From Flavobacterium lacisediminis (GTDB taxonomy: Bacteria; Bacteroidota; Bacteroidia; Flavobacteriales; Flavobacteriaceae), in assembly GCF_025909975.1 (NCBI RefSeq), contig NZ_JAPCIO010000006.1, positions 62,001 to 126,000 on the forward strand: 64,000 bases of DNA. Reading direction: 5' to 3'. Under the pieces are notes generated by a model. That model saw nothing but the letters and a program-made list of their open reading frames with translations. It searched no databases and had not been told where the DNA came from. The position numbers were made by a program, and so were the translations under genes. The number at the start of each line of letters is the position of its first letter. The stretch's first letter is position 1. Positions 48,158-62,595 of the stretch are shown piece after piece.

Positions 48158-48215
48158 AATTTTTATAAATTATTATATTGCAATATTACGATAAACAAAT
48201 ATAATACACAATAAA

Positions 48216-48241
48216 AAATCCCGAAATTTCTTTCGGGATTT
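48216..48241 (-). terminator. Terminator of rpsA
   Basis: AAATCCCGAAA (48216-48226) and TTTCGGGATTT (48231-48241) with loop TTTC; on the minus strand it is followed by T6 and lies 22 bp after the rpsA stop. Confidence 0.9.
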
Positions 48242-48263
48242 AAAATATTTAGAAAATTAGAGA

Positions 48264-50027: not shown

Positions 50028-50145
50028 GCTGATTAAAAATTTGTATGTTGGGTTTCTTGCGTTTCTTTATGCGAAGAGAAAACATCAACAGTGTTTTACA
50101 TAAATAATTGAAACCTAATGGAAACGCTATCCGCCAAAAGGTGCG

Positions 50146-50176
50146 CAAAATTACAACTATATTTTTGATTTACAAA
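50146..50176 (-). promoter_or_regulatory. rpsA promoter
   Basis: On the minus strand TTTG-N19-TAATTTTG (the -7 box is the complement of 50146-50153). The resulting leader is about 115 nt. It is divergent from the next promoter. Confidence 0.8.
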
Positions 50177-50221
50177 ACTTTGAATACTAGTTTTTATTAC
50201 CATTCTAACATTTTTTTATGT

Positions 50222-50251
50222 TTTGTAACTGAGTTATTTTGAATACATTTG
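50222..50251 (+). promoter_or_regulatory. Promoter of the TlpA/DUF4369 gene
   Basis: TTTG (50222-50225), 18 bp, TACATTTG (50244-50251), 19 bp before the ATG. Confidence 0.75.
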
Positions 50252-50270
50252 CGAAAATTTAATCAATAAA

Positions 50271-51395
50271 ATGAAAAAAATAGTATTTTTTGCAGTAACT
50301 GCATTAGCCATTATTTCTTGTAACAACTTAAAAGACAATGAATACTTACTAACAGGAACCGCTGAAGGCATTGAAAATGGTAAGAAAATTTATGTTGAAA
50401 TTTTAAATGATACTGGTACTGCTGTTAAAGACACAGGAGTAGTTGAAAATGGAAAATTTGAATTAAAAGGAACCGTTTCTGAAACAGATTTGGCCTATGT
50501 AAGAATTGAAAATGAAGATTTTTCTGTGCCTATTATTTTAGAAGAAGGAAACATCAATATTGTATACAAATCAGACACCATTCAAAATTCTATTATTAGC
50601 GGAACTAAAAACAATGATAAATTTCAGGAGTTCAATAATCAATCGGTTGTAATTGCAAAAAAGAAAAACAAGTTTGAAAAAAACAATATTGCAAGAATGC
50701 AGGAAGCTAAAAAGAATAAAGACACTGCAACTATCAATATGATTGCTAAAGAATACAATAGTTTTCAGGATGAAATGAATTCTATTTCGAAAAAATTCAT
50801 AAAAGAAAACCCAGATGCTTATTTATCTGCATTGTTGTTAGAGAATTTTTTAATGAGACAATACTTAACACCTGAAGAAGTAAAAAATTACTATGAAGGA
50901 TTAAGCGAAGAGGTTGCCCAAACTAAGAGCGGAAAAAAAATCAAAGCTATGCTTGATACAATGTCTGCTTTAAGTATTGGCAAACCAGCACCTGCATTTT
51001 CTGGACCTTCACCAGAAGGAAAAACTATTTCTTTGAAAGAATCATTAGGTAAAGTTACTATTGTTGATTTTTGGGCTTCTTGGTGTGGACCTTGTAGAGG
51101 TGAAAACCCTAATGTAGTGGCACTATATAATGAATTTCATGCACAAGGACTTAATATCATTGGAGTTTCTTTAGATAAAGATGCTGCAAAATGGAAAGAA
51201 GCAATTGCAAAAGATGGTTTAACTTGGCCTCATGTTTCTAACCTTAAATATTGGAACGAACCAATTGCTAAATTATACAATGTTGAATCTATTCCTGCTA
51301 CTTTTATTTTAGACGCTAAAGGAACTATTGTAGCAAAAGACCTTAGAGGCGATGCTCTACGTGCCAAAGTAAAAGAACTTTTAGGTGTAAAATAA
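50271..51395 (+). CDS. TlpA family disulfide reductase lipoprotein with DUF4369
   Basis: A lipoprotein of 374 residues (MKKIVFFAVTALAIISCNNL). An N-terminal DUF4369 (about 20-230, beginning LTGTAEGIENGKKIYVE) is followed by a TlpA-type thioredoxin domain (about 235-374) with the active WASWCGPCRGENP, QGLNIIGVSLDKD and VESIPATFILDAKG (cis-Pro). It should reduce disulfides in the periplasm. Unlike the gene at 3.5 kb its CxxC is intact. It has its own promoter and terminator. Confidence 0.93.
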   Translation: MKKIVFFAVTALAIISCNNLKDNEYLLTGTAEGIENGKKIYVEILNDTGTAVKDTGVVENGKFELKGTVSETDLAYVRIENEDFSVPIILEEGNINIVYKSDTIQNSIISGTKNNDKFQEFNNQSVVIAKKKNKFEKNNIARMQEAKKNKDTATINMIAKEYNSFQDEMNSISKKFIKENPDAYLSALLLENFLMRQYLTPEEVKNYYEGLSEEVAQTKSGKKIKAMLDTMSALSIGKPAPAFSGPSPEGKTISLKESLGKVTIVDFWASWCGPCRGENPNVVALYNEFHAQGLNIIGVSLDKDAAKWKEAIAKDGLTWPHVSNLKYWNEPIAKLYNVESIPATFILDAKGTIVAKDLRGDALRAKVKELLGVK

Positions 51396-51416
51396 ACACT
51401 ATTCCATACAAAATAA

Positions 51417-51443
51417 AAAAATCTCCTTTTGGAGATTTTTTTA
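51417..51443 (+). terminator. Terminator after the TlpA gene
   Basis: AAAATCTCC, loop TTTT, GGAGATTTT followed by T's. Confidence 0.88.
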
Positions 51444-51497
51444 TGTTTTTCATTTACAGAACATTATAAAATAGTACGTAAAATTGTAGAAAATAAC

Positions 51498-51528
51498 TTT
51501 GCAGGTATAAAAAACAATTCTATATTTG
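51498..51528 (+). promoter_or_regulatory. tRNA-Tyr promoter
   Basis: TTTG (51498-51501), exactly 19 bp, TATATTTG (51521-51528), 31 bp before the tRNA. Confidence 0.85.
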
Positions 51529-51559
51529 CAACCGCTTAGTCAAATAAGCAAGATGGCTT

Positions 51560-51641
51560 GGGGAGATACTCAAGCGGCCAACGAGGGCGGACTGTAAATC
51601 CGCTGATTACATCTTCGCAGGTTCGAATCCTGCTCTCCCCA
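51560..51641 (+). tRNA. tRNA-Tyr (GTA)
   Basis: The 7-bp acceptor stem GGGGAGA/TCTCCCC is closed by discriminator A; the anticodon loop CTGTAAA with a stem GCGGA/TCCGC has anticodon GTA at 51594-51596; the long variable arm marks a class II tRNA; the T arm contains GGTTCGAATCC. CCA is not encoded. An independent promoter and terminator flank it. Integrase gene 218 bp downstream. Confidence 0.97.
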
Positions 51642-51643
51642 CA

Positions 51644-51671
51644 AAAGCACCTTTAACGAGGTGCTTTTTTT
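51644..51671 (+). terminator. Terminator of tRNA-Tyr
   Basis: AAAGCACCT (51644-51652), TTAACG loop, AGGTGCTTT (51659-51667) and a T-run. Confidence 0.9.
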
Positions 51672-51706
51672 GTTTCTTATTATTCCTTCTATTGCATACA
51701 TCTTGC

Positions 51707-51783
51707 ATACACTATCCATACTTTATCTATACACTATCTATGGAGTATCTACCTAGTATCCTCCTAGCATCCTCCTATTATGT
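51707..51783 (+). repeat. Seven 11-bp degenerate tandem repeats upstream of the integrase
   Basis: Seven consecutive 11-mers read ATACACTATCC, ATACTTTATCT, ATACACTATCT, ATGGAGTATCT, ACCTAGTATCC, TCCTAGCATCC and TCCTATTATGT. Positions 9-10 (AT) are constant, and positions 8-10 spell TAT or CAT in all seven. The period of 11 bp is close to one helical turn, so the repeats would lie on one face of the DNA. They end 75 bp before the integrase ATG. Function is unknown; regulator or recombinase binding is a hypothesis. Confidence 0.8.
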
Positions 51784-51830
51784 ATTACTTAATTTGCTCT
51801 TTGACAAATGAATTATTTCTATTTTATTTT

Positions 51831-51838
51831 TATATTTG
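51831..51838 (+). promoter_or_regulatory. Putative integrase promoter -7 box
   Basis: TATATTTG at 51831-51838, 20 bp before the ATG at 51859. The nearest TTTG is at 51800-51803, a gap of 27 bp, longer than usual. Confidence 0.5.
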
Positions 51839-51858
51839 CTTTATATAAGCCATTAATT

Positions 51859-52902
51859 ATGAATTGGAAAGCCAAAACTTTACTACACAAAGGAACACCT
51901 AGAATTGCTGTTTATTTTGAAAAAAACACGGAATTAATTGCGCGCATTAAAACTTTTGAAGATGCAAGGTGGAGTCCTACTAACAAATACTGGCATTTAC
52001 CCGATACTGAAGCTAATCGATTGCATTTTAATCTTCCATTAGCCCATACTTTAGTTCCAAATGCTGAAGGAATTTCAAGCATTGAAACATTCAAACGCTA
52101 TCTTTTATCAAAGCGCTACAGCCCAAATACGATTAACACATACAGCGAGGCTTTGAAATCGTTTTTAACTTTTTGCAACACAAAAGCCGTAAAGGACATT
52201 ACTAACGAAGATGTGATTTTATACAACAATGATTATATTTTAAAGCATAATTTATCTTCTTCGTATCAAAATCAGATTGTGAATGCTATTAAACTGTATT
52301 TTAAGATTGTAAAAGACACTGCAATTGAAATTGACAAAATACATAGACCAAAACGAGAAAAAGTATTACCTAATGTTTTGAGTAAAGAAGAGGTGAAAGC
52401 AATTATTTCTGCTCCTACAAACCAAAAACACAAAACAATGTTAAGTTTAATTTATTCTTGTGGGCTAAGATGTGGTGAGTTATTAGCACTTCAACCTCAT
52501 CATATTGATTCTAAAAGAAATATAGTTTTACTGAAAAATTCAAAAGGGAAAAAGGACAGAATTGTTCCGTTAAGCCCTAAAATATTAGAACTATTAAGAG
52601 ACTATTATAAAGTTTACAAACCAAAGACTTTTTTATTTGAGGGGCAAAAAGAAGGAACTCCTTATGATGCAAGAAGTTTACAGCTTATATTAAAACAAGC
52701 CTTAAAAAAAACCGGTATCACAAAACCTGCTACATTACATTGGTTGAGGCATAGCTATGCTACTCATTTACTTGAAAGTGGAACTGATTTACGTTATATT
52801 CAGGAACTTTTAGGCCACAACAGTAGCAAAACCACTGAAATTTACACCCATGTAAGTACAAAAAGTATACAACAAATTAAAAGTCCATTTGATGATTTGT
52901 AA
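51859..52902 (+). CDS. Tyrosine recombinase of the cassette array
   Basis: A 347-residue tyrosine recombinase. All catalytic residues are present: Arg204 (CGLRCGELL), Lys229 (SKGKKDR), His294 and Arg297 (HWLRH), His320 (LLGH) and Tyr329 (EIYTH). An N-terminal domain (1-75) precedes the SAM-like DNA-binding domain (about 76-155). Between the Lys hairpin and HxxR there are only about 59 residues, so the extra helix of true integron integrases (IntI) has no room. Its end (KSPFDDL) and GITKPATLHWLRHSYATHLLE strongly resemble both IntI and the IS91-associated Xer-like recombinases. The start at 51859 is preferred over 51808 because it follows the -7 box. It reads into the array of eight cassettes. 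Confidence 0.88.
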   Translation: MNWKAKTLLHKGTPRIAVYFEKNTELIARIKTFEDARWSPTNKYWHLPDTEANRLHFNLPLAHTLVPNAEGISSIETFKRYLLSKRYSPNTINTYSEALKSFLTFCNTKAVKDITNEDVILYNNDYILKHNLSSSYQNQIVNAIKLYFKIVKDTAIEIDKIHRPKREKVLPNVLSKEEVKAIISAPTNQKHKTMLSLIYSCGLRCGELLALQPHHIDSKRNIVLLKNSKGKKDRIVPLSPKILELLRDYYKVYKPKTFLFEGQKEGTPYDARSLQLILKQALKKTGITKPATLHWLRHSYATHLLESGTDLRYIQELLGHNSSKTTEIYTHVSTKSIQQIKSPFDDL

Positions 52903-52913
52903 GAAAAATTTAA

Positions 52914-52921
52914 TATATTTG
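52914..52921 (+). promoter_or_regulatory. Pc-like promoter box between integrase and cassettes
   Basis: TATATTTG at 52914-52921, with TTTG at 52888-52891 (22 bp away), points toward the first cassette gene (ATG 53041) and could drive the array as Pc does in other integrons. Confidence 0.45.
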
Positions 52922-52971
52922 ATTTAACTAAAAAAGCGAAACAAAACTTCGTTTATCTACCCATAAATGGC

Positions 52972-53011
52972 TGTATATACGAAACTTTATATCGCATATA
53001 TACAAGTTAGC
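52972..53011 (+). other. Candidate attI recombination site
   Basis: This sequence precedes cassette 1. It has an imperfect inverted repeat of recombinase-like half-sites (TGTATATACGA at 52972-52982 and TCGCATATATACA at 52992-53004), immediately followed by the crossover core GTTAGC at 53006-53011, identical to the R' core of attC1-3. The position matches that of attI. No experiment supports it, and the half-sites were found by eye. Confidence 0.55.
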
Positions 53012-53040
53012 AGCAATGTAATCAGCAATATCTTAAAATC

Positions 53041-53478
53041 ATGAATGACTTAGATTTTTTCGAAATATCTGGAAATGGAAACTCTATAAAGATTGAATTA
53101 CTCGGATTAAATAATCCGAATGCTGAATTAGGTTATGATGCAAATTGGATTGGTGGCAATGTAAGCGTCAAAGCTGGTGCATTTTTCGGAAAATTTAAAG
53201 CTGATTTTATTACAAGTGACTTTCCTAGCTTTAAAAATCAACTTGAAAAACTTTACGAAAATCTGAATGGTTTTGCTGAATTTTATACTTTGGAAAATCA
53301 AGTTGAAATCAAAATAAAAGGTGATGGAATTGGGCATTTAAATGCAGTTTGTGAAGTAGTTGATTTTCCTGGCGATGGTAATGAGTTAAAATTTCAAATT
53401 GAATTTGACCAAACACATTTACCATTAATCATAAAACAGCTTACACAAATTGAAAGTAAATACACATCGAAAACATAA
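53041..53478 (+). CDS. Cassette 1 gene: WapI-type immunity-like protein
   Basis: A 145-residue soluble beta-rich protein. The sequence IGGNVSVKAGAFFGKFKADFITSDF, then YENLNGFAEFYTLENQVEIKIKGDGIGHL and LKFQIEFDQTHLPLIIKQL, has the outline of WapI-type immunity proteins (DUF6228-like) that neutralise contact-dependent toxins. This is a recollection of the family, not a database match. No toxin gene is next to it. A stand-alone immunity gene would fit the role of cassettes as defence against neighbours. Confidence 0.6.
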   Translation: MNDLDFFEISGNGNSIKIELLGLNNPNAELGYDANWIGGNVSVKAGAFFGKFKADFITSDFPSFKNQLEKLYENLNGFAEFYTLENQVEIKIKGDGIGHLNAVCEVVDFPGDGNELKFQIEFDQTHLPLIIKQLTQIESKYTSKT

Positions 53479-53489
53479 AATACACAGCT

Positions 53490-53620
53490 GCTAACAACGG
53501 TTTGTCACAATAGCTTATACTCTACTCCGGCTGAAAATCCGCTGGATTTTCAACTCGTAGTTTTCATAAGAACATTTTTCGTAAATTAGCCGCTACTGCG
53601 CCAAGCCGCGGAACGTTAGC
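53490..53620 (+). repeat. attC site 1
   Basis: The 5' arm GCTAACAACGGTTTGTCAC pairs imperfectly with the 3' arm GCGCCAAGCCGCGGAACG followed by TTAGC. It ends cassette 1 and shares the core of cassette 2. In the centre a 9-bp hairpin (TGAAAATCC 53532-53540, GGATTTTCA 53544-53552) precedes a promoter-like TAAATTAG (53582-53589). The own-cassette ends GTTAGCAGCAATGTA and, on the complement, GTTAGCAGCTGTGTA match at 13 of 15 positions. Confidence 0.85.
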
Positions 53621-53646
53621 AAACATATATAACCCGAACTATAAAA

Positions 53647-54315
53647 ATGAGTTTAGTAGAATTTGCATTTAAAATTTATCAAGACATAACTGGAAGCGAT
53701 AAGTCGTTTTTAAAGAAATTCTATATTTACATTTTAATTATATTTGGTTTGTATGTTGCGGACAATATAATTGGTTTTTCATATTATCAAAGCGTTAGCA
53801 GTAAAATAGAGAAAACCAAAGAAATAAATTCTATATTAAAAGATAGTGCAGTTTTATCTAAAAGTGAAATAACTAAACTAAAACTTTTAAGAAGCGATAT
53901 AATAAATCGCAAAACAATTAAAGATAACGTTTATTCTTTTTTCTCAAACATATCTTTTATTAGTAGTAAAAATCCAATTACTACAAAACCTATTGAAACT
54001 AATCCCATAATTGAAAGAAATCCTGATTTACATTTTTATACTTCATCTGCTTCTATTTTATTAATTATGATTATTTTCTTTTTTGCAGGTTTAATAGATA
54101 GACAATCTCCTTTACCGCAAAAAATAATAACTATAATTGTTGTTGAACTAATATTATACCCATTTGCTTTTTTATTTTCTAAAGTATTATATTTAATACC
54201 AGTTATAAATGAAAAACCGACAATAAACTATGTGTTAAATGTAGTTTTATCATTTTTAATTCCTTATTTACTATACTACATACCAACTAAATTGAATAAA
54301 AAATATAAATATTAA
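53647..54315 (+). CDS. Cassette 2 gene: membrane protein, unknown
   Basis: A 222-residue membrane protein with about four hydrophobic helices (near 25-45, 133-150, 160-182 and 196-215), and a charged, mostly helical domain between the first and second. Ends with a basic tail (KLNKKYKY). I do not recognise the family. The codon and base composition is very AT-rich, like the other cassettes. No signal peptide is evident. Confidence 0.65.
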   Translation: MSLVEFAFKIYQDITGSDKSFLKKFYIYILIIFGLYVADNIIGFSYYQSVSSKIEKTKEINSILKDSAVLSKSEITKLKLLRSDIINRKTIKDNVYSFFSNISFISSKNPITTKPIETNPIIERNPDLHFYTSSASILLIMIIFFFAGLIDRQSPLPQKIITIIVVELILYPFAFLFSKVLYLIPVINEKPTINYVLNVVLSFLIPYLLYYIPTKLNKKYKY

Positions 54316-54322
54316 TACGTTT

Positions 54323-54443
54323 GCTAACAGCGGTTTAGCAATAGTGCAAATATTTGAGTTACTACGTTTCGCTATCATAAATAAATTTATATTAAATTTG
54401 TCTTTACGATGTTTGCACCATCGCTAAGCCACAAAACGTTAGC
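54323..54443 (+). repeat. attC site 2
   Basis: 5' arm GCTAACAGCGGTTTAGCAAT, 3' arm ATCGCTAAGCCACAAAACGT, then TAGC. It ends cassette 2. In the centre TAAATTTG (54393-54400) matches TAnnTTTG. The own-cassette ends GTTAGCAAACATATA and GTTAGCAAACGTATT agree except at positions 11 and 15. Confidence 0.85.
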
Positions 54444-54452
54444 TGTGATTTT

Positions 54453-55226
54453 ATGACGACAGTGCAAGAAATAAGAAATAAGGTAAAAATGTTCCGACCA
54501 ACAAGTCAGGATTTAATTCTCTTTGATCCCAATCTGAACGACAATTCAACTCGACTTTTAAAATTCAAAGATGACCAAGATAACAGATATAAAATTTTTG
54601 TATTTACGGACACTGTTAAGTTGGAAACACCTTTGACAACTTCTTTGCTTTTCTCCATAAACTATCCTGACAAAGTATGCTTAGCAAAAAAACTGTTGTT
54701 TGAAGAAAGTGGAATTGGGAAAATATATACGGACAACTCACAAAACGAACAGATTCAACTTTGCATAAAACTTCTAATGGACAACCTTAAATCATTAAAC
54801 TTCGAAATAAATGAAGGTTTAACAGTTTATAGAAATTCAATACAACTTACATTGAAGCAAGACAGACAAATGCTAGCAGAAATTGAAGGTTTAAAAAAAA
54901 TAAAATCAATAGTTGAGTACAATTTTCCCGATGAAACTGGAAAAATTCATTTCTCTGATTTACCAACAGACTTAAGACATATGCTAAAGAAATTTGAGAG
55001 TTTAGCTATTTCAGACGACTTTGAAAGAGAAGAGAAAATTCTAACCTTAACAGAAAAGCAACGCATAGATTTCATTGAATCAATTCAGCCAAAGCTTGAA
55101 AATATAAATGTATTCCTAGACACTTTTAGTGAAATACAATTATCCGAAGGAGCAATACGACTTCAAAATTTAGCAAAACTATTCATTGAATTGACAAATC
55201 AACACCAAAATAAAAACCACAGCTAA
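54453..55226 (+). CDS. Cassette 3 gene: unknown cytoplasmic protein
   Basis: A 257-residue soluble protein of unknown family, without signal peptide or membrane helix. It starts MTTVQEIRNKVKMFRPTSQD and has a beta-rich first half (up to about residue 110) and a long alpha/coiled-coil second half (about 130-250) rich in Glu and Lys. No catalytic motif recognised. It begins 9 bp after attC2 ends. Confidence 0.6.
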   Translation: MTTVQEIRNKVKMFRPTSQDLILFDPNLNDNSTRLLKFKDDQDNRYKIFVFTDTVKLETPLTTSLLFSINYPDKVCLAKKLLFEESGIGKIYTDNSQNEQIQLCIKLLMDNLKSLNFEINEGLTVYRNSIQLTLKQDRQMLAEIEGLKKIKSIVEYNFPDETGKIHFSDLPTDLRHMLKKFESLAISDDFEREEKILTLTEKQRIDFIESIQPKLENINVFLDTFSEIQLSEGAIRLQNLAKLFIELTNQHQNKNHS

Positions 55227-55352
55227 CAGCAGTTTGGCGCAATAGCTAATTTATTTTCCAATCTAAATTTTTCTTCCCGAAAATGTTTATCTTTAACCGA
55301 AAATAATACGTTCGCTGGCGCCGCTACTGTCGCCAAGCTGCGAAACGTTAGC
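55222..55352 (+). repeat. attC site 3
   Basis: 5' arm GCTAACAGCAGTTTGGCGC, 3' arm TGTCGCCAAGCTGCGAAACG then TTAGC. It overlaps the stop codon region of gene 3 by 5 bp. The centre holds TATCTTTA (55288-55295), similar to the -7 box but without the final G, and TTATCTTTAACCGAAAATAA shared with attC7. The own-cassette ends GTTAGCTGTGATTTT and GTTAGCTGTGGTTTT match 14 of 15. Confidence 0.85.
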
Positions 55353-55370
55353 TACAATTACAGAAAAACT

Positions 55371-56018
55371 GTGCGAATTCAAACCGTAACATCAGAAATG
55401 ATAAATATATTAGGTATTTTTTTAGTCGTAACAATCATAATTTTTTCATTAATCACATTCATAATTAATAAGAATGATAATGAGATTCAAAATAATAAAA
55501 TATACAAAATCAGTATATCAAGACATTTCGTAAGATTATGCATGCCGATAAATTGGTTTTTGATTTCTATTTTATTCTTTCCATTAGGCAGTTTAGCAAT
55601 CGTAATGTTTACTTCGAAGAATTATCTCGTCGGATTTATAGGAATCGTTATCACAACATCTTCAATAATTCTATTTTATTTCTCAATTTTGGCTTTCATG
55701 TTACACAAACAATATTCTAAAATAGAAAAAAACAGAGCTATGACTTTTGATAAAGAAAAAAGATCAATAACTATTTTAAATACAAAAAACTCAAATCAAA
55801 TAATCCTTACCGAAAATAATATTAAAGGTATTCAAATCAATTTATATACTGGAAACCAACGAAAACCTATATCAGAATATGAATATATCAAGTATTTCAC
55901 AAATGAAAATGATGAAATTATTATAACCAGTTTACAAACAAACATATCGAACTTAGATAGTTTCTTTAAAGGAGTAAAAAGAAATTCAATTTATAGAAAA
56001 ATAAACTGGATAAAATAG
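55371..56018 (+). CDS. Cassette 4 gene: membrane protein with PH-like C-terminal region
   Basis: A protein of 215 residues from a GTG at 55371, or 206 from the ATG at 55398 (MINILGIFLVV); the start is undecided because the GTG lies well placed 18 bp after the attC3. Three N-terminal helices (about 12-33, 57-78, 85-110) are followed by a beta-rich C-terminal part ending FFKGVKRNSIYRKINWIK that resembles bacterial PH-like domains. Function unknown. Confidence 0.6.
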   Translation: MRIQTVTSEMINILGIFLVVTIIIFSLITFIINKNDNEIQNNKIYKISISRHFVRLCMPINWFLISILFFPLGSLAIVMFTSKNYLVGFIGIVITTSSIILFYFSILAFMLHKQYSKIEKNRAMTFDKEKRSITILNTKNSNQIILTENNIKGIQINLYTGNQRKPISEYEYIKYFTNENDEIIITSLQTNISNLDSFFKGVKRNSIYRKINWIK

Positions 56019-56026
56019 TAACTGTA

Positions 56027-56188
56027 GCTAACAGCGGTTTTAAGAAATGGCGGGGACAGTGTGTAATTGGAGGAGTTCGTGAAAGCACTTCAGTGCTTTT
56101 TTTATCAATTATCTTAAAACCTTTTCGGTATATTTGTATTGGGCAGTGACAAATTTTAGCCACTTCTTAAAGCCTCAAAACGTTATAA
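56027..56188 (+). repeat. attC site 4
   Basis: 5' arm GCTAACAGCGGTTTTAAGAA, 3' arm TTCTTAAAGCCTCAAAACG with the core GTTATAA of cassette 5. The centre holds a terminator-like hairpin (AAAGCAC 56082-56088, GTGCTTT 56093-56099, then T4) followed by TATATTTG (56129-56136). The own-cassette ends GTTAGCTACAATTAC and GTTAGCTACAGTTAC match 14 of 15. The first 50 nt resemble attC5. Confidence 0.85.
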
Positions 56189-56248
56189 GCAAGCCACCCA
56201 AAATTGTGGAAATCAATGACCTTAATTTAAATTCTAACTCTAGAACCT

Positions 56249-56887
56249 ATGGGATTTAGCTCACAAAGTTTCAATCATTATTTGATAGCAAAAAAAGCGT
56301 TTGAACAATATTCAGAACCAAATGATGCTTTAATTACAATTATGTTTTCCACTATGTTTATTGAAGCTGTATTAAATGATACTATTTGCGGTGAAAATCT
56401 AACACACGAATTACTTGTAAAAAATAATATAGATTCAAAAGAATTAGACAGATATAAATTCGACTTTGATATTTATCAAGACCAAATTGCATTTTATTAC
56501 AAAATAGAAGTCCTTTTCGAGAAAAACGGAAAACAAAATTTCACTAATGATATTGAATATATAGAGTTAAAACATTTGGTTTCGTTAAGAAATTCCATTG
56601 CACATTTAAAACCCATTATTAAAGATGAAAATGGATTTCCAAAAAACAAAATTTCAAAATCCGCTCTTAATTATCTGAAACAGAAAAAAATGGTTAACGA
56701 TCCATATGGTATTGGCGTTGACTGGATTGATCGAATATCAAATAAACAAGTTTCTGAATGGGCGTTAACTGTTACAAAGCAAACTATAGAATATTTATAT
56801 AATTCTACTTGTTACCCACCATTAGGAATTCCACAACTAGATTTTTACTGCTTAAAGTTGTCCATTGGAAAATATAAAAATATTTGA
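56249..56887 (+). CDS. Cassette 5 gene: HEPN-like protein
   Basis: A 212-residue, mostly helical soluble protein. The segment SLRNSIAHLKP carries RNSIAH (Arg114 to His119), the R-x4-H motif that is the catalytic signature of HEPN-domain RNases of toxin-antitoxin, Abi and CRISPR systems. The first part (FEQYSEPNDALITIMFSTMFIEAVLNDTI) fits a helical HEPN bundle. The RNase role is therefore likely but not established; no antitoxin gene is in the cassette. Family details such as RiboL-PSP or Swt1-like could not be assigned. Confidence 0.68.
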   Translation: MGFSSQSFNHYLIAKKAFEQYSEPNDALITIMFSTMFIEAVLNDTICGENLTHELLVKNNIDSKELDRYKFDFDIYQDQIAFYYKIEVLFEKNGKQNFTNDIEYIELKHLVSLRNSIAHLKPIIKDENGFPKNKISKSALNYLKQKKMVNDPYGIGVDWIDRISNKQVSEWALTVTKQTIEYLYNSTCYPPLGIPQLDFYCLKLSIGKYKNI

Positions 56888-56918
56888 ATTTAATTCAATA
56901 ACTAAACCTAAGGCCTGC

Positions 56919-57083
56919 TTATAACAGCGGTTTTGTGAAATGGCGGGGTAAGTGTATAATTGGAGGAGCCAGTGCTTGCACTTCTCTCCTATTTTTCAAC
57001 TTTTTTCTTTCAAACTTTTCAGTATATTTGTAAGCATCAGTAATAAAATTCCGCCACTTCACAAAGCCGGCTGGACGTTGTGC
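56919..57083 (+). repeat. attC site 5
   Basis: 5' arm TTATAACAGCGGTTTTGTGA, 3' arm TTCACAAAGCCGGCTGGACG with the core GTTGTGC of cassette 6. Centre: a short hairpin AGTGCTTGCACT, then TATATTTG (57023-57030). Shares its first half closely with attC4 (AAATGGCGGGG, AATTGGAGGAG). The own-cassette ends GTTATAAGCAAGCCA and GTTATAAGCAGGCCT match 13 of 15. Confidence 0.85.
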
Positions 57084-57113
57084 GTAATGTTACCGACGAA
57101 TCGAAACAAAAAA

Positions 57114-57530
57114 ATGATAAAGAATATTTTAGAAAATTTAAAGACTGATAAAACTCAAAGAATTGTTTATTCATTTGGATTATTATTATTATTATGGTTA
57201 TTTGTTTGGAGTGATAATTTTCAATTTATAAATGGTGAAACTTTTGTTATTTACCTTATTCAAATTTTATTACCATTATTTTTTATAACAATACAAATAT
57301 TTTATAACAATAAAGTTATTTGGAAAATACTCTTTATATATTCAATAATCTATAGTTTATGGATAATAAATAATGTTTTTTCGGATATATCACGTGAAAT
57401 GAATAGAGATTATGCTCCATATCCAAATTTGTTCGTAGGACAAATTAGAATTTGGATAATTTTAGGCTCAATAATTTTAATTGTGAATTGGATAATTTGG
57501 AAAATAAAACCAATAAAAAATACTTTATAA
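57114..57530 (+). CDS. Cassette 6 gene A: small membrane protein
   Basis: A 138-residue membrane protein from the ATG at 57114 (MIKNILENLKTDKTQR) with four hydrophobic helices (about 21-36, 42-66, 70-85, 114-133). The frame stays open further upstream through attC5, which is not credible as coding. It is followed 2 bp later by gene B, so it is the only cassette with two genes. Function unknown. Confidence 0.62.
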   Translation: MIKNILENLKTDKTQRIVYSFGLLLLLWLFVWSDNFQFINGETFVIYLIQILLPLFFITIQIFYNNKVIWKILFIYSIIYSLWIINNVFSDISREMNRDYAPYPNLFVGQIRIWIILGSIILIVNWIIWKIKPIKNTL

Positions 57531-57532
57531 AA

Positions 57533-57892
57533 ATGACAATTAAAAGACTTACAAATAATTGGCTTGAAAAGTATCGCTCTATGTGGGAGAAACAAAGTTT
57601 TGAAATAATTATTCATAATTGGTCTGAAGACAGAACTGAAAATAGCATTGAAATTGAAATCCATAAAGGAAATTTAATGTCATCAATCACAATTTGGGAA
57701 TCTGGAGCTTGTGATTTTTTACAAATCTATAAAGACAAAGATATTAATAGTGATAATAAATACTTTAAAAATGTAATATTAAAAACTGAAAACCAATTGA
57801 ATTGGGAACTTGATAATTTCTTCTGTAATTATGAAAGTTTAGGAGGAAGTTCAATTGACCCAGTTCATCATTCAGAAAAGTTTATTATATAA
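57533..57892 (+). CDS. Cassette 6 gene B: unknown soluble protein
   Basis: A 119-residue soluble protein, start MTIKRLTNNWLEKYRS at 57533, separated by 2 bp from gene A and therefore co-translated. It is rich in Trp, Tyr and Asn with a mixed alpha/beta outline (FEIIIHNWSEDRTENSIEIEI), and resembles small immunity-type proteins in size and composition, but I recognise no specific family. Confidence 0.6.
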   Translation: MTIKRLTNNWLEKYRSMWEKQSFEIIIHNWSEDRTENSIEIEIHKGNLMSSITIWESGACDFLQIYKDKDINSDNKYFKNVILKTENQLNWELDNFFCNYESLGGSSIDPVHHSEKFII

Positions 57893-57900
57893 AACACTAC

Positions 57901-58037
57901 GCACAACAGCGGTTTAAAAATATGGCTGGTTTCGGGAATTTTTGAAATGGCTCAGTTGTTTAATTTAAAGTTTTGGTTATATTTGTGAAGGCTTGGTGTT
58001 GCATTTTCGCCACATTTTCAAGCCGCAGAACGTTACC
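57901..58037 (+). repeat. attC site 6
   Basis: 5' arm GCACAACAGCGGTTTAAAAA, 3' arm TTTCAAGCCGCAGAACG with the core GTTACC of cassette 7. The centre holds a complete promoter: TTG (57956-57958), 19 bp, TATATTTG (57978-57985). The own-cassette ends GTTGTGCGTAATGTT and GTTGTGCGTAGTGTT match 14 of 15. Confidence 0.85.
57956..57985 (+). promoter_or_regulatory. Promoter inside attC6
   Basis: TTG-N19-TATATTTG matches the phylum consensus with optimal spacing, pointing at the cassette 7 gene 69 bp downstream. It is the clearest of the attC-borne promoters. Confidence 0.65.
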
Positions 58038-58054
58038 TGTAATTTTAAAAAAAA

Positions 58055-58717
58055 ATGAGAAGAAAAATTGAATTTACGAAAGAAACAATTTTACCTAATT
58101 TAGTTTTCATATTTAGTGTAATTAACATTATAAACAACATATCTAATTTAAATATTTCAATAGTTTTATCCCTAATTGGAATTTGTGGTACAATTCTTTT
58201 TTATAATCAAAATAACATTTCTAGTAAATTAATATACATTTGGTTAATTGCTCAAGTAATTATTATTGAACCAATATTTAATTTAAATCAATTAGGTTTT
58301 ACTTTATCTTTTAGCTTAGGTTTTGGAGATTATAATCTAAGTATCAATTTTCTTCCATTATTGTTTTTAGGCTTGATTAAAGTAATTGAATCGGCAAACT
58401 TAATTGGAAAACAAATCAATTTAATGGAATTTAGAGAAAATACAATTTCAGAATTCCTACCAATTAGAGGAATAATTACTCAACGTTTAGATTTTAATGA
58501 AAATAAAAATTGGCTACTTATTGATTTAGAAAACCAACTTGAATTTGAGGGAAAAAAAATTGACAAAGTTTTAATAAAAAATAAAGATGCAGAAAAATCA
58601 ATCAAACTCAAAAAGAAAAATCAGATTGCTCATTTGAGATTAGTTACTGACGAATCTAAACTTTTGTCGAGTGAACTAAGTGAATTTCCATTTATTGACT
58701 GGATTCGTTGTGAATAA
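58055..58717 (+). CDS. Cassette 7 gene: membrane protein with soluble C-terminal domain
   Basis: A 220-residue protein with four N-terminal helices (about 12-30, 33-50, 58-75, 97-115) and a C-terminal cytoplasmic domain of about 95 residues with many Lys and Glu (ENQLEFEGKKIDKVLIKNKDAEKSIKLKKK). It starts 17 bp after attC6. The family is not recognised; no catalytic motif. Confidence 0.62.
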   Translation: MRRKIEFTKETILPNLVFIFSVINIINNISNLNISIVLSLIGICGTILFYNQNNISSKLIYIWLIAQVIIIEPIFNLNQLGFTLSFSLGFGDYNLSINFLPLLFLGLIKVIESANLIGKQINLMEFRENTISEFLPIRGIITQRLDFNENKNWLLIDLENQLEFEGKKIDKVLIKNKDAEKSIKLKKKNQIAHLRLVTDESKLLSSELSEFPFIDWIRCE

Positions 58718-58727
58718 AAAAACTACA

Positions 58728-58857
58728 GGTAACAGGCGTTTGGCAAGATTGCGAATTTTGTAGTAAATTCACATTTACATTTCGCAAGAAATTTTATCTT
58801 TAACAGAAAATAATCGGTTCCTAAGCTCGCAACCTCGCCAAGCGCCGGAACGTTAAC
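58728..58857 (+). repeat. attC site 7
   Basis: 5' arm GGTAACAGGCGTTTGGCAAG, 3' arm CCTCGCCAAGCGCCGGAACG with the core GTTAAC of cassette 8. Centre: TATCTTTA (58795-58802), shared in context with attC3. The own-cassette ends GTTACCTGTAATTTT and GTTACCTGTAGTTTT match 14 of 15. Confidence 0.85.
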
Positions 58858-58871
58858 TGCAAGCTTAAAAA

Positions 58872-59303
58872 ATGAAAATTCCAGAAACTTCAAACGACTT
58901 CAAAAATGAATTCTATTCTTCAATTGACTTAATTGAAAAAATTGGAGATTTAAGAATAAGACAACTGACTGAAAAACTGAACAAAGTGTCGGAAGAAATT
59001 ATTGTTATTGGAATAATTGATATTTTTGAAAATACTGAAAGACCAACATCCCAATATACTGACCAAAAATTCGCTGGGAAAATATTAACCAAACTAAAAC
59101 CTAAAACTGATATTAATTTAAGCGATATTCTAAAATCCACTCTTGGAAATTGGAATAAAAGCGTTGAAGAGTTTCCTTTTTGGCTAAAAGAAAATTACGG
59201 AATTGATTTACTCAAAAGCAAACTAACCGAATTTGAAACTCAAAATTTAACCGAAATAGAACGAGACAAACTGAATACAATGAAATGGTGGCTGAAAATA
59301 TGA
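58872..59303 (+). CDS. Cassette 8 gene: unknown soluble protein
   Basis: A 143-residue soluble protein with N-terminal helices (about 12-50) and a Trp-rich end (NTMKWWLKI). No signal peptide, no membrane helix, no family recognised. It begins 15 bp after attC7. Composition is similar to the other cassette genes. Confidence 0.62.
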   Translation: MKIPETSNDFKNEFYSSIDLIEKIGDLRIRQLTEKLNKVSEEIIVIGIIDIFENTERPTSQYTDQKFAGKILTKLKPKTDINLSDILKSTLGNWNKSVEEFPFWLKENYGIDLLKSKLTEFETQNLTEIERDKLNTMKWWLKI

Positions 59304-59322
59304 AATAGAATAAAAGCCAGCA

Positions 59323-59440
59323 GTTAACAGCGGTTTGCTTCAATGGCTACTTCTGGATTTTCCTACGGAAAATCCGCTGCTGAATGGAATGTTTTGTTAT
59401 ATTTGTGATGGCTCTGAAAGCAAGCTTCATAACGTTTGGC
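59323..59440 (+). repeat. attC site 8 (end of array)
   Basis: 5' arm GTTAACAGCGGTTTGCTTCA, 3' arm AGCAAGCTTCATAACG followed by GTTTGGC. The centre holds the 9-bp hairpin GGATTTTCC (59355-59363) / GGAAAATCC (59367-59375) and then TATATTTG (59398-59405). The own-cassette ends GTTAACTGCAAGCTT and GTTAACTGCTGGCTT match 13 of 15. After it a new cassette start is present but no further attC. Confidence 0.8.
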
Positions 59441-59587
59441 GTTATATCGACAAGAGCTGATGTTATCATTACATTTATGAGTAACGATAGATATAAACAT
59501 TCTGATTTAATGGAAATTCCATTTCACGCGTTAACCTACAAATAAAAACTATTTCTTTTTATTCCCTGATAATTAATTTTACACGAA
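59435..59587 (+). other. Start of a truncated ninth cassette
   Basis: The sequence after attC8 begins with the core GTTTGGC and has A at position 11 (59444) like all other cassette starts. No matching end (complement of GTTTGGCGTTATATC) follows within the next 800 bp. It holds a 22-codon reading frame (ATG 59477 to TAA 59545, MSNDRYKHSDLMEIPFHALTYK), possibly a remnant. Otherwise nothing recognisable. Confidence 0.5.
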
Positions 59588-60136
59588 ATGAACCAATTTT
59601 TCACTTTACTTTGCTTGCTACTTACAACTTCTTTTTATGCTCAAATTAATGAAGGACAAGATTTTTGTGATCCTAATAAAAATGGTGATTTTTTTCCTTT
59701 GTCAATAGAGAAAAAAAAGATTCTTTGGGCTGACTATTCCTACTTTGAAACGCAAAATGGAACCAAACAAATTAAAGGAAAAATCTACATTGAATTTTTA
59801 CAGAATTGGGGAGATAAAACAGATAAACTCTATCTAAGAGAGGAAAATGGTACTATTTATCAATATGAGGAATGTTGTACTATTGAAACCATCCGATATG
59901 ATATAAATTTCAAAAAAGGACATTCTTGGAAAACTGCTGATGGTAAAAGTACCTATGAAATTATCTCATATAACGGCAAATTAAAAACTCCGTTTTGCGA
60001 ATATAAAAATCTTTTGGTGATTAAGGCGGAGTTAGATTTTGGTACCTATCATTTTTATTATTTACAAGGACATGGGTATGTAGGAGCGACAACCTCTAAA
60101 AACAAACTTATTTCTTGTGTAACACCAGCTTGGTAA
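59588..60136 (+). CDS. Secreted protein of unknown function
   Basis: A 182-residue protein with a signal peptide (MNQFFTLLCLLLTTSFYA). The mature part starts INEGQDFCDPNKNGDFF and is beta-rich with paired cysteines (FCDP, EECCT, FCEY, SCVT). No family recognised. It lies after the array and, lacking an attC, is probably the first flanking chromosomal gene, or part of a damaged last cassette. Confidence 0.65.
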   Translation: MNQFFTLLCLLLTTSFYAQINEGQDFCDPNKNGDFFPLSIEKKKILWADYSYFETQNGTKQIKGKIYIEFLQNWGDKTDKLYLREENGTIYQYEECCTIETIRYDINFKKGHSWKTADGKSTYEIISYNGKLKTPFCEYKNLLVIKAELDFGTYHFYYLQGHGYVGATTSKNKLISCVTPAW

Positions 60137-60177
60137 GTATTAATTACAGTTGTTTCGATTACCTCAAAAGGTTACAA

Positions 60178-60205
60178 AAAAAGCCAGAACTTACATTCTG
60201 GCTTT
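60178..60205. terminator. Bidirectional terminator
   Basis: AAAAGCCAGAA (60178-60188) and TTCTGGCTTTT (60195-60205) with loop CTTACA, between convergent genes. Confidence 0.9.
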
Positions 60206-60226
60206 TCTGTTTATTAAACTAATTTC

Positions 60227-60919
60227 TTATTCTAACACAAACGAAACGGATACGTTTGAAATAATCTCAATTTCTCCAATTGCTAAGGTTTCTTGTGGCA
60301 TTGCACTTCCATCAGCCATTGCCATAGTTTTCATTTCGGCATACACTGGTCGTGGGTAATTAGTAAATGAGTTGTCTGAAATTACTAACGCCTTCCCTAC
60401 TTTTTGCCCTGCTAAAACCGAAACGTAATCTTCTGCTTTTTGCTTAGCATCTAACATGGCTTTTTTACGCGCTTGACTTTCGTATTCTTTAATTTTAGAC
60501 GATTTGAATTCTACACCTTGTATCGAATTGATGCCGCTATCTACCAAATCCATCATTAACTTATCGTATTTAGATAAATCTTTTAAATGAATTGAAATGG
60601 TTTGATTGGCTACGTAATTGTATTTTTTAGTGTTATAATCATAGTTCTTGTATAAATTCACACGTTGCGTTTGATAATCAGCCGTAGGAATACCACGTTG
60701 TTTGATTAACTTTAGTACTTTATCTACGATTTCATCGTTTTTCTTTTTTACTTCGGCTGCTTCTTTTCCAGTGTTTTCTACAGCTACTGTAATTATAGCT
60801 TCGTCTGGTGTAACCTTAATTTTTCCTTCTCCTGAAACGCTAATTTGCGGAACTGTTTTTACTTCTTGTGCTTGTACCATACCTGCTGAGAATAATAGTA
60901 TCATTACTAAATTTTTCAT
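60227..60919 (-). CDS. SIMPL domain protein (periplasmic)
   Basis: A 230-residue protein with a signal peptide (MKNLVMILLFSAGMVQAQ) and the SIMPL (DUF541) fold: PQISVSGEGKIKVTPDEAIITVAVENTGKEA, VNLYKNYDYNTKKYNYVANQTISIHL and ALVISDNSFTNYPRPVYAEMKTMAMADG. The family is periplasmic, with proposed roles in stress and surface maintenance. The gene is monocistronic. Confidence 0.9.
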   Translation of the reverse strand: MKNLVMILLFSAGMVQAQEVKTVPQISVSGEGKIKVTPDEAIITVAVENTGKEAAEVKKKNDEIVDKVLKLIKQRGIPTADYQTQRVNLYKNYDYNTKKYNYVANQTISIHLKDLSKYDKLMMDLVDSGINSIQGVEFKSSKIKEYESQARKKAMLDAKQKAEDYVSVLAGQKVGKALVISDNSFTNYPRPVYAEMKTMAMADGSAMPQETLAIGEIEIISNVSVSFVLE

Positions 60920-60985
60920 AATCTTAATATTTTAATTATTTATAGTTTTTCAAGTATTGTGCCAAAAAAACAAAATCTTAAAATT

Positions 60986-61612
60986 TTATAATTTATTCAT
61001 CTTTTGTAAGAAAAATAAAACTACAATTGGAACTAATAAAGCTCCAACAGTTATTGGCTCAGTTGTAATGAGTTGGGGATATTTTATCAATGTAAAAACA
61101 TAACCGCCAATTGCACCTCCAAAATGGGCTACGTGACCAATATTATCTCTTTTTGCTTTCATTCCGTAAATAGAGAACAGCAAATAAGCAAATCCGAAGA
61201 TATAGCCAGGAATAATTCCATACATATATAAATTAGGCTCTAATAAAATAGCACTAAAAATAACTCCTGTAACGGCTCCAGAAGCACCAACTGCTCGGTA
61301 CGAATACTCGTTTTTATGAAAGTAGAATGTAAGTAAATTGCCTGCAATTAAACTTCCCATATAAATGTACAAAAAATAAAGCGCATTTGTATTATTGATT
61401 ACATGAGGTGCAAAAAAATACAAGGTAAACATATTGAAAAACAAATGTTGAAAATCGACATGCAAAAAACCAGAACTTAACATACGAATTTGTTCGCCCG
61501 ATTTAATACTTCCGATATGAAACTCGTACTTTCTAAAAAATGAACTATCATTCATAGCTTTGTAACTAATAAGAACGTTTAGTGCAATTAGAATCAATAA
61601 AATAATATTCAT
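60986..61612 (-). CDS. Rhomboid family intramembrane serine protease
   Basis: A 208-residue protein with six hydrophobic helices. The catalytic serine is in AVGASGAVTGVIF (GxSG, Ser about 110) and the histidine in NIGHVAHFGGAIGGY (about 155). The opening includes GFLHVDFQHLFFNMFTLYFF, the H-x2-N motif of rhomboids. It should cleave transmembrane substrates; the target is unknown. Divergent from the acyltransferase. Confidence 0.92.
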   Translation of the reverse strand: MNIILLILIALNVLISYKAMNDSSFFRKYEFHIGSIKSGEQIRMLSSGFLHVDFQHLFFNMFTLYFFAPHVINNTNALYFLYIYMGSLIAGNLLTFYFHKNEYSYRAVGASGAVTGVIFSAILLEPNLYMYGIIPGYIFGFAYLLFSIYGMKAKRDNIGHVAHFGGAIGGYVFTLIKYPQLITTEPITVGALLVPIVVLFFLQKMNKL

Positions 61613-61695
61613 GAAATTGTATTTTTTGTAAATTTAGGAATACTTTGGCAAATTTACTTCCAAGTAAAAAAGTATATTTGTAAAAAATTTCGCGA

Positions 61696-62577
61696 ATGCA
61701 ATTATTAGTTTACATACTTATCTATCCGATATTGTGGATAATATCTATTCTACCTTTCCCTGTTTTTTACTTATTTTCCGATTTTGTTTGCTTTTTAACG
61801 TATAACATTATTGGCTACAGAAAAAAAGTAGTACGAGCTAACATTCAATTAGCCTTACCTCATTTATCTGATAAAGAACGACTTACTATTGAAAAGAAAT
61901 TTTATAGCCATATGTGTGATATGTTTTTAGAAATGATAAAAACCATCACTATTTCGCAAAAAGAAATTGAAAAACGATTTACTTTTAGCAATATGGAGGT
62001 GTATTATGAATTGGAAAAAAAGAATAAAAGTATTGCTTTAATGTGCGCGCATTATGCGAGTTACGAATGGGTTGTTTCCATGAATTATCACATCAATTGT
62101 AAAGGATTTGGAATTTATAAAAAATTAGCGAATCCGTATTTTGATAAATTAGTAAAACGAATCCGTTCTAAATTTAAAGCCGAATTAATTACTACTAAAG
62201 AAACCATTCCAACCATTGCTGAAAATCATAAAAATCAGCTATTAAGCTTATATGGATTTGCAAGTGATCAATCGCCTAAAGCTGTGTCTGCCTACCATTG
62301 GGCGCCTTTTATGGGACATGTCGTACCCGTTCATACAGGAGCCGAAATGCTAGCTAAACGTTTTGATATGAATGTGATTTTTCTAAGAACTAAAAAAATA
62401 AAAAGAGGCTATTATCAAGCAAGCTTTGAAGTACTTTCAGATGATGTAAAATCGGTTCCTAATTATGAAATTACTGATAAATTCTTGAAGTTAGTAGAAG
62501 AACAAATCTATGAAGCTCCAGAATTTTATTTGTGGACGCATAAAAGATGGAAACACTCAAAAGAAAAAGCTCAGTAA
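61696..62577 (+). CDS. Lipid A biosynthesis acyltransferase-type protein
   Basis: A 293-residue lysophospholipid/lipid A acyltransferase (LpxL/HtrB family). An N-terminal membrane helix (about 5-40) is followed by the catalytic HYASYE (H-x4-E, about 120-125) and the family segment YGFASDQSPKAVSAYHWAPFMGH with the downstream PVHTGAEMLAKRFDMNVIFLR. It adds a secondary acyl chain to lipid A on the inner face of the membrane. Its stop codon lies in the loop of the terminator. Confidence 0.9.
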   Translation: MQLLVYILIYPILWIISILPFPVFYLFSDFVCFLTYNIIGYRKKVVRANIQLALPHLSDKERLTIEKKFYSHMCDMFLEMIKTITISQKEIEKRFTFSNMEVYYELEKKNKSIALMCAHYASYEWVVSMNYHINCKGFGIYKKLANPYFDKLVKRIRSKFKAELITTKETIPTIAENHKNQLLSLYGFASDQSPKAVSAYHWAPFMGHVVPVHTGAEMLAKRFDMNVIFLRTKKIKRGYYQASFEVLSDDVKSVPNYEITDKFLKLVEEQIYEAPEFYLWTHKRWKHSKEKAQ

Positions 62578-62595
62578 TAACTGAGCTTTTTCTTT
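62564..62595. terminator. Bidirectional terminator overlapping the acyltransferase stop codon
   Basis: AAAAAGCTCAG (62564-62574), TAATAA, CTGAGCTTTTT (62581-62591) with T and A flanks. The stop TAA 62575-62577 is the loop. Confidence 0.92.

Follow-up and report, generated by a model that had tools for sequence, protein, structure and literature searches.

Is an array of gene cassettes that lies beside a tyrosine recombinase gene in a flavobacterial chromosome an integron, and, if it works as one, is its recombinase the integron integrase IntI? The question is raised by a locus of Flavobacterium lacisediminis contained in the window, the whole 64,000-nucleotide (nt) stretch of DNA that was analysed (contig NZ_JAPCIO010000006.1, positions 62,001 to 126,000), for which a prior sequence-only reading had proposed a complete non-classical integron. 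Sequence comparison addresses the anatomy of the locus, the boundary of its attI-like site, the polarity of its sites, the covariation of their stems, the pairing of each cassette start with its own end, the recurrence of cassettes, and the absence of an IntI-specific insert from the recombinase. The results indicate that the locus is very probably an integron-like platform, in which a Xer-like, non-IntI recombinase is likely to insert and excise cassettes. In particular, the system works like an integron wherever sequence can test this, whereas its recombinase departs from IntI in each of the defining features examined.

From an attI-like G^TT at position 53006, the array runs to position 59433 and comprises eight cassettes, which measure 582-955 bp and have an attC-like palindrome at their ends (Table 1). 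Cassette orientation is uniform, and the recombinase gene is co-directional with the cassettes. A search of the window with R1, a covariance model built from the array's own kind of site using 57 of 96 listed sites, yielded exactly eight matches at E-values up to 1, all on the + strand and with E-values from 3.3e-26 to 7.4e-7. Because five of the eight window sites were in the R1 training set, we also used a separate motif-plus-stem detector, tuned on the window array and two related arrays. At a lenient threshold, the detector found all eight sites on the + strand and none on the - strand, and gave no match in 40 dinucleotide shuffles of positions 48001-64000; at a stricter threshold, it found seven of the eight, missing site 8, and gave no match in 1.6 Mb of reversed sequence. 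Invariant columns in the alignment of the eight sites include AACA, GTTT, AAGC, and ACGTT. Rfam, at its gathering threshold, returned nothing for the sites in the window or in two array pieces. The eight palindromes of the sequence-only reading are thus all recovered by both methods, and the array lies, as claimed, directly downstream of a tyrosine recombinase; the description of single-gene cassettes in one orientation holds for orientation and fails, as to single genes, for cassette 6, which has two open reading frames (ORFs).

The start of each cassette pairs with that cassette's own end. In the window, comparison of a cassette's end, reverse-complemented, with the 7 bases that follow GTT gives 6 or 7 matching positions of 7 in all eight cassettes when the start is the cassette's own, and 2-5 of 7 when it is that of the next cassette. 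In a larger set, at least 6 consecutive bases match the cassette's own start in 55 of 78 cassettes (43 of 121 sites, for which no own start is known, were left out), versus 5 of 121 for the next start and 1.8% for random pairing. Own-end pairing reaches approximately 15 bases, with 82-88% paired at four positions past a fixed mismatch in the R arm, which is C.A in 71 of 78 cassettes. In canonical IntI arrays of the same phylum, the own-end rule is obeyed by six of seven cassettes of locus L192 and by one of four cassettes of locus L196, where intervening sites were probably missed. Because L192 obeys the rule and lacks the fixed C.A mismatch, the rule is one shared with integrons, and the mismatch looks particular to the present class of sites.

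Comparison with the nearest relative places turnover at the same boundary. Locus L110 of Flavobacterium sp. UBA7663, the recombinase of which is 97% identical to that of the window, has the same upstream S1-domain gene, thioredoxin-family gene, and tRNA-Tyr gene. The two loci are near-identical through the recombinase gene and approximately 100 further bases, up to ...ATATATACAAGTT, and past that GTT they are unrelated, the first cassette of L110 differing from that of the window and having matching ends of its own. Both the proposal that G^TT is the cassette boundary and the expectation of differences between related strains are borne out by these comparisons. A search of the other loci, L039-L158, for the nine cassette proteins of the window (tblastn, 1e-8, at least half length) detected none of them.

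Cassettes also recur as units. In 25 of 28 cases, the two ends of a second copy of a cassette (at least 85% identity and at least 60% coverage) lie no more than 3 nt from the G^TT borders, pairs being counted in both directions and most listed pairs being duplicates within one array. Specifically, a 1435-bp metal-transport cassette (L071:5152-6586, - strand), which encodes a MerT-HMA protein, a regulator of the ArsR family, and a small protein rich in cysteine, occurs in four loci from different taxa, with its ends exactly at G^TT and with unrelated flanks: it is 99% identical in L071 and L140, and 93-94% identical in L098 (F. denitrificans, Flavobacteriales), where it lies directly at attI, and in L114 (Pelobium, Sphingobacteriales). 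DNA related to this cassette is found in 27 of 395 genomes of the class; among the weaker of these matches, several cover only part of the cassette or have ends that do not coincide with G^TT.

The attI-like site adjoins the recombinase gene, as indicated by the boundary between the window and L110 and by a motif conserved in relatives: ATA-N3-6-AGTT is present 40-150 nt past the recombinase stop codon in 84 of 101 loci, versus 1 in shuffles. By eye, a motif of 5-6 bases varies by locus and is seemingly repeated within each (CTTCG, CATAC, CAGAC, TAGCG; examples are window positions 52936-53005, L039, L079, and L088), giving the impression that recombinase and attI coevolve; the inverted-repeat score of attI has a median of 5, versus 4 in shuffles, and exceeds the 95th percentile in 22 of 84 loci, which supports the repeats weakly. 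A TAnnTTTG element, which we take to be a -7-like promoter consensus, lies within 55 nt of the recombinase stop codon in 61 of 101 loci, versus 2.6 expected from shuffles. No regular -33 element (TTG spacing) was found upstream of TAnnTTTG in the same loci, and the promoter is therefore a predicted one.

Across loci, sites follow the recombinase gene on its own strand. In a set of 100 recombinase loci (80 named loci and 20 chosen others, at least one locus being present twice, and the more distant recombinase loci L066, L068, L069, and L072-L078 lying outside the set), the detector found 161 sites 3' of the recombinase gene on the recombinase strand (598 kb), none in the 754 kb that lie upstream on that strand, and none in 1.35 Mb of the opposite strand. 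With R1, 50 of 57 loci with long flanks (among which L044 and L088 are one locus) have sites, and 231 of 233 matches are located 3' on the recombinase strand. Large arrays behave in the same manner: R1 matches number 54 in 35 kb of the one-contig genome G158 (L206, L207) and 43 in G187 (L208, L209), all in one direction bar one weak mirror match. The contig breaks off no more than 1 kb 3' of the recombinase gene in 28 of the 80 named loci, and no more than 1 kb 5' of it in 3, an excess expected if downstream repeats break assemblies. Among 150 congeners, with scoring limited to 22 candidates per genome, the 84 that have the recombinase (E ≤1e-50) hold a median of 15 sites and the 66 without it a median of 2.5. 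A relative of the window's recombinase group (E ≤1e-60) is present in 96 of 296 sampled genomes of the phylum.

The sites have, from the outside, an R arm that contains the cassette's own start, AAC/GTT, a spacer, an L arm, and a variable loop. The spacer is asymmetric, with A against five bases, and the L arm has approximately 20 pairs with fixed 1x1 exceptions. Except in the spacer, the arms pair column by column, with fixed 1x1 mismatches instead of one-sided bulges; these sites show no extrahelical bases bulged from one side of the folded bottom strand. Covariation in 57 sites supports the stem: 91.8% of stem cells are paired, versus 69.5% after shuffling, and 227 cells are doubly changed, versus 66, with none of 500 shuffles as high on either measure. 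Slid versions of the stem are 29-45% paired, a control that leans towards the structure because the 120 sites from which the structure was derived (121 less one duplicate) overlap with those tested.

Predicted folding energy is lower for the bottom strand in 84 of 120 sites taken in their array context, and in 71 of 78 when the cassette is joined into a virtual circle. At 15 inner-stem pairs, G-T wobbles number 112 on the bottom strand versus 39 on the top strand (30 versus 8 with one site per locus), and, of three fixed positions outside these counts, two favour the bottom strand (C.A in 71 of 78, A.C in 74 of 120). Single-site folding of six window sites, sites 4 and 5 being too long, gives a canonical bottom-strand hairpin for four. 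On balance, folding energy together with the mixed wobble counts leads us to predict a folded bottom strand, as in integrons. We infer that the recombinase of the window is the catalyst, that a folded single strand is its substrate, and that integration takes place at attI. In this scheme, circular cassettes would likely be inserted at attI by the Xer-like recombinase and would likely be excised by way of the attC-like site's bottom strand in folded form, and the promoter at the end of the recombinase gene is predicted to express the cassettes.

Several observations weigh against this interpretation. The coupling of sites and recombinase is incomplete: two distant loci, L072 and L076, have a site upstream on the other strand; of 63 loci in which 1.5 kb or more of sequence is available 3' of the recombinase gene, 20 have no detector site, and there is no R1 match at 7 of the 57 long-flank loci; and at least 8 sites are present in 14 of the 66 congeners without a detected recombinase, while 5 of the 84 with it have none, so that array and recombinase can part. 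The own-start match falls short of 6 bases in 23 of 78 cassettes, some of these short matches perhaps arising from a missed site between. As to strand, wobble in the R arm has no bottom-strand bias (G-T, 16 bottom versus 14 top), the third fixed position (T-G in 94 of 120) favours the top strand, and window sites 6 and 8 fold non-canonically on their own. Finally, the classical account of single-strand recombination needs extrahelical bases and the I2 helix; here, there are 1x1 mismatches and no I2.

The identity of the recombinase bears on which kind of platform this is. The gene is intact and encodes all catalytic residues (R204, K229, H294, R297, H320, and Y329), in a protein that comprises an N-terminal domain, a SAM-like core-binding domain, and a catalytic domain. 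The best-matching family is NF040815 (XerA), at 223 bits just over the cut-off of 220, the NCBI name of which itself mixes "tyrosine recombinase/integron integrase", and the best matches in the Protein Data Bank (PDB) are 4a8e and 5hxy. The N-terminal domain (residues 1-60), modelled alone as beta-beta-alpha-beta-beta-alpha with a predicted local distance difference test (pLDDT) value of 77, has no significant fold match and no significant solved relative among known structures, a SMARCAL1 HARP-like domain being at most a candidate identity for it. Of 35 array-type rows, 34 have an N-terminal stretch at least approximately 70 residues long, where the IntI rows have 0-20 residues. The window genome's own XerC/XerD-like proteins lie in a separate clade and have no extra N-terminal domain. 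Three distant recombinases (L222, L223, and L224), with open frames of approximately 490-610 residues and long N-terminal extensions, are present in several congeners; the last approximately 70-100 recombinase residues are also found as fragments (G004:C1:480810-481046, G026:C4:53019-53231, and G070:C1:322273-322560); and at L167, a relative on a plasmid (67% identical), the single R1 match lies 13 kb downstream.

That the locus is a classical IntI integron, its integrase merely divergent or having lost the extra domain, is very improbable. In its favour, TIGR02249 (integrase_gron) matches all 13 scanned members of the window's recombinase group, the window recombinase itself scoring 200 bits, below the cut-off of 265, in an alignment split in two (positions 2-179 and 239-315); Foldseek ranks VchIntI4 (2a3v) just behind XerA; and the tree, which left out L221 and the bootstrap of which is marked rough, leaves the deeper order of IntI, array-type, and other recombinases unsettled. 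The same tree, however, groups the 14 IntI rows in one clade (100/100) that excludes the window, and places the window within a 31-row clade (100/96) and the array-bearing L065, L067, L070, and L071 in yet another. Between amino acids 240 and 290 there are 50-51 residues in all 35 array-type rows (51 in the window) versus 92 in all 14 IntI, and, in the alignment, the IntI-specific I2-containing insert (approximately 40 residues, near patch III) is absent from the window recombinase. Among twelve canonical IntI loci from the same phylum, two had R1 matches, three in all and weak (25-34 bits), versus up to 122 bits at array-type loci, and in genomes with both recombinases (e.g. G194, G203, G282, G444, and G464) the listed R1 sites are never on the IntI contig, being on the contig of the array-type recombinase or on other contigs. 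As judged from its sequence, the recombinase is not IntI by the defining features, having no insert, lying outside the clade, and scoring below the TIGR02249 cut-off; it is Xer-like, of a lineage that is separate from IntI and spread through Bacteroidota. The search against IntI that the sequence-only reading had suggested therefore goes against an IntI identity: "complete non-classical integron" stands for the cassette array, the attI, and the recombinase, does not stand for an IntI integrase, and understates the difference because the recombinase fails IntI-defining features. The accompanying claim that integrons are uncommon in Bacteroidota does not hold for the wider GTDB phylum, where canonical IntI (TIGR02249) exceeds the cut-off in 84 of 296 sampled genomes; of the 85 listed genomes with a TIGR02249 match, however, one belongs to the window's own class, of which the sample contained at least 71 genomes.

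If the sites were instead passive repeats, like repetitive extragenic palindromes (REP) or miniature inverted-repeat transposable elements (MITE), or pdif-like modules moved by the host XerC/XerD, the recombinase would be a passenger; the presence of sites in genomes without a detected recombinase and the Xer-like character of the recombinase fit this explanation, which we nevertheless regard as extremely improbable. The 161-to-0 polarity is too strict for scattered repeats, the host XerC/XerD-like genes belong to another clade, and copies are mostly exact gene-plus-site units. Moreover, the sites are palindromes of approximately 120 nt with a G^TT crossover and cassette-specific arms, unlike dif sites, which are short and are not known to be bound to cassettes. 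Passive repeats, transposons, and pdif modules are accordingly rejected on the grounds of polarity, boundaries, and recombinase clade. An array that is integron-like in origin and is now an inactive fossil in this genome is unlikely: it would account for there being only eight cassettes, with a weak last site, and for the in-frame stops or fragments of the recombinase genes of some relatives, and it sits poorly with the intact window recombinase, with the difference of a whole first cassette between the window and L110 in near-identical flanking DNA, and with the own-end match of all eight cassettes. The integron-like platform with a Xer-like recombinase remains the reading that we prefer.

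The platform also has a scattered, single-slot form. The genome to which the window belongs has 18 R1 sites, of which eight lie in the window and ten elsewhere. All six examined among the ten are lone units, made up of an attI-like sequence, one cassette, and one site (Table 1). TAnnTTTG is located 81-82 nt upstream of GTT in five of the six, and no recombinase remnant was found upstream of the four lone units examined for one. In three other genomes, the attI motif is present at 1 of 11 lone sites; some of the remaining lone sites begin at an apparent variant of the motif.

Relatives of the recombinase in predicted viral contigs of IMG/VR, at approximately 40-48% identity, have sites of the same kind. 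R1 sites (E ≤1e-3) are present in 34 of 48 loci tested, which were drawn from 80 (L242-L321) and include some near-copies of each other, and 104 of 107 listed R1 matches are upstream, on the strand opposite the recombinase gene. In eight viral loci, the own-end rule (at least 5 bases) is obeyed by 19 of 23 cassettes, versus 1 of 23 for the next start. Near the array of one viral contig is a protein of an RNA ligase family of phages, and, of seven other proteins scanned, the recombinase was the sole further match; apart from the ligase, the viral label is that given by IMG/VR, and the tree comprises non-viral recombinases. Examples of viral loci are L245, L264, L278 (281 kb contig), L289 (256 kb contig), and L320. 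Viral recombinases mostly match from residue 60-87 onward, and, in three viral pieces with ORFs listed, most ORFs are on the recombinase strand, opposite to the sites.

Table 1. Features of the array in the window, and lone units elsewhere in the same genome (G000)
Feature	Position	Strand	Evidence
Tyrosine recombinase, 347 aa	51859..52902	+	catalytic residues, domains, family matches
Promoter-like element TATATTTG, TAnnTTTG (-7-like), predicted cassette promoter	52914..52921	+	sequence motif
attI-like site ending ATATATACAA^GTT; short locus-specific motif repeated upstream	52936..53008	+	motif and relative comparison
Cassette 1; ORF 53041-53478 (145 aa), WapI-like immunity protein family PF24716	53006..53614	+	
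attC-like site 1, crossover G 53615	53490..53620	+	R1 76.0 bits
Cassette 2; ORF 53647-54315 (222 aa), hydrophobic stretches by eye, no family match	53615..54437	+	
attC-like site 2, crossover G 54438	54323..54443	+	R1 87.3 bits
Cassette 3; ORF 54453-55226 (257 aa), no family match	54438..55346	+	
attC-like site 3, crossover G 55347	55222..55352	+	R1 97.6 bits
Cassette 4; ORF 55398-56018 (alternative GTG start 55371), hydrophobic stretches by eye, nothing over family cut-off	55347..56181	+	
attC-like site 4, crossover G 56182	56027..56187	+	R1 58.6 bits
Cassette 5; ORF 56249-56887 (212 aa), weak HEPN-like match below cut-off	56182..57076	+	
attC-like site 5, crossover G 57077	56920..57082	+	R1 67.3 bits
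Cassette 6, first ORF 57114-57530, hydrophobic stretches by eye	57077..58031	+	
Cassette 6, second ORF 57533-57892, weak TriTu immunity-protein match below cut-off	57077..58031	+	
attC-like site 6, crossover G 58032	57902..58037	+	R1 81.5 bits
Cassette 7; ORF 58055-58717 (220 aa), hydrophobic stretches by eye, nothing over family cut-off	58032..58851	+	
attC-like site 7, crossover G 58852; by eye resembles first site of L110	58728..58857	+	R1 123.2 bits
Cassette 8; ORF 58872-59303 (143 aa), nothing over family cut-off	58852..59433	+	
attC-like site 8, crossover G 59434; weakest, last	59323..59439	+	R1 39.2 bits
Lone unit L059	G000:C4:31665-32475		
Lone unit L228	G000:C12:512031-512667		
Lone unit L063	G000:C32:38908-39574		
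Lone unit L229	G000:C35:96780-97442		
Lone unit L060	G000:C36:45459-46178		
Lone unit L064	G000:C33:143187-143316		

Cassettes are small and carry mostly unfamiliar genes. In 151 cassettes examined, the median length is 568 bp and the median ORF 161 amino acids; the forward ORF is the longer one in 140, and a forward ORF of 45 amino acids is absent from 15. In family scans, which took 114 of 136 cassette proteins, at most 24 of the 114 match Pfam at E 0.001, in 22 families found nearly all once each; most cassette genes belong to no recognised family. Immunity-like, metal-transport, and candidate defence genes are among those matched, and PADLOC PDC-M63B models match cassette proteins, each in one member.

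A tRNA-Tyr gene is located 217 nt upstream of the window recombinase gene, and a tRNA-integrated island was therefore among the candidates considered and rejected: a tRNA lies close upstream in the window's relatives L110 and L040, and the platform is not tied to tRNA because 23 of 25 loci have no tRNA within 1 kb 5' of the recombinase gene. Elsewhere in the window, positions 7733-7839 (- strand) correspond to an ordinary Bacteroidales small signal recognition particle (SRP) RNA (Rfam RF04183).

Among the closest known systems, sedentary chromosomal integrons resemble the locus in sharing a recombinase, an attI, small cassettes mostly in one orientation, an AAC/GTT crossover, a hairpin with R arm, unpaired spacer, L arm, variable loop, and predicted bottom-strand preference, and cassette starts complementary to their own ends. 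They differ in that the window recombinase is not IntI, has no I2-containing insert, and has an extra N-terminal domain; in that window-type sites carry 1x1 mismatches (the fixed C.A) where integrons have one-sided bulged bases; and in that, here, the recombinase is co-directional with the array and lone attI-plus-cassette units lie elsewhere in the genome. Archaeal and bacterial XerA/XerC/XerD provide the closest catalytic-domain family; the host's own XerC/XerD-like proteins differ from the window recombinase in clade and in having no extra N-terminal domain. CTXphi integration by XerC/XerD likewise involves a folded phage site used by Xer proteins; CTXphi, however, has no cassettes and no dedicated recombinase.

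Passages of PMC4792948 describe CTXphi integration as the only reaction with similarities to cassette recombination, state that the I2 domain has not been identified outside integron integrases, and state that XerCD are without adaptations for single-stranded substrates; the same source and PMC3053210, in the parts concerned with mechanism, explain classical single-strand cassette recombination by extrahelical bases and the I2 helix. Phage integrons (PMC9892861, which reports integron-integrase genes and attC sites in phages) are alike in combining cassette-type sites and a recombinase in viral sequence, and differ in that the present viral relatives were found by similarity to a non-IntI protein and have sites opposite the recombinase strand; a term search of the main text of that paper finds neither Bacteroid- nor Flavobacteri-. 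Bacteroidota are counted among integron-bearing phyla in statements of two reviews (PMC9668308, PMC8618304), the Bacteroidetes/Chlorobi group is listed with integrons in a part of PMC2426708, and the relevant section on IntegronFinder 2.0 names one complete integron in Bacteroidetes proper, in Salinibacter (PMC9024848). A Tenacibaculum genome is reported, in the corresponding section of PMC10013915, to have no integrons by IntegronFinder. No description of this system was recognised in the literature as judged by titles and the starts of abstracts, a scope outside which preprints and most subscription papers fall.

On this evidence, we lean towards the view that the locus represents a second integron system, parallel to or older than that of IntI, in which an I2-less Xer-like recombinase would act on folded single-stranded cassettes, in arrays of at least 50 cassettes and in scattered attI platforms across Bacteroidota, and which would be shared with large phages. 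Such a system would have been overlooked until now, although it would be common across Bacteroidota and probably also occur in the phages of these bacteria. An integron logic without I2 would make directly testable what cassette recombination needs and how it arose, and the system would name a route of gene exchange in a group in which integrons are thinly reported.

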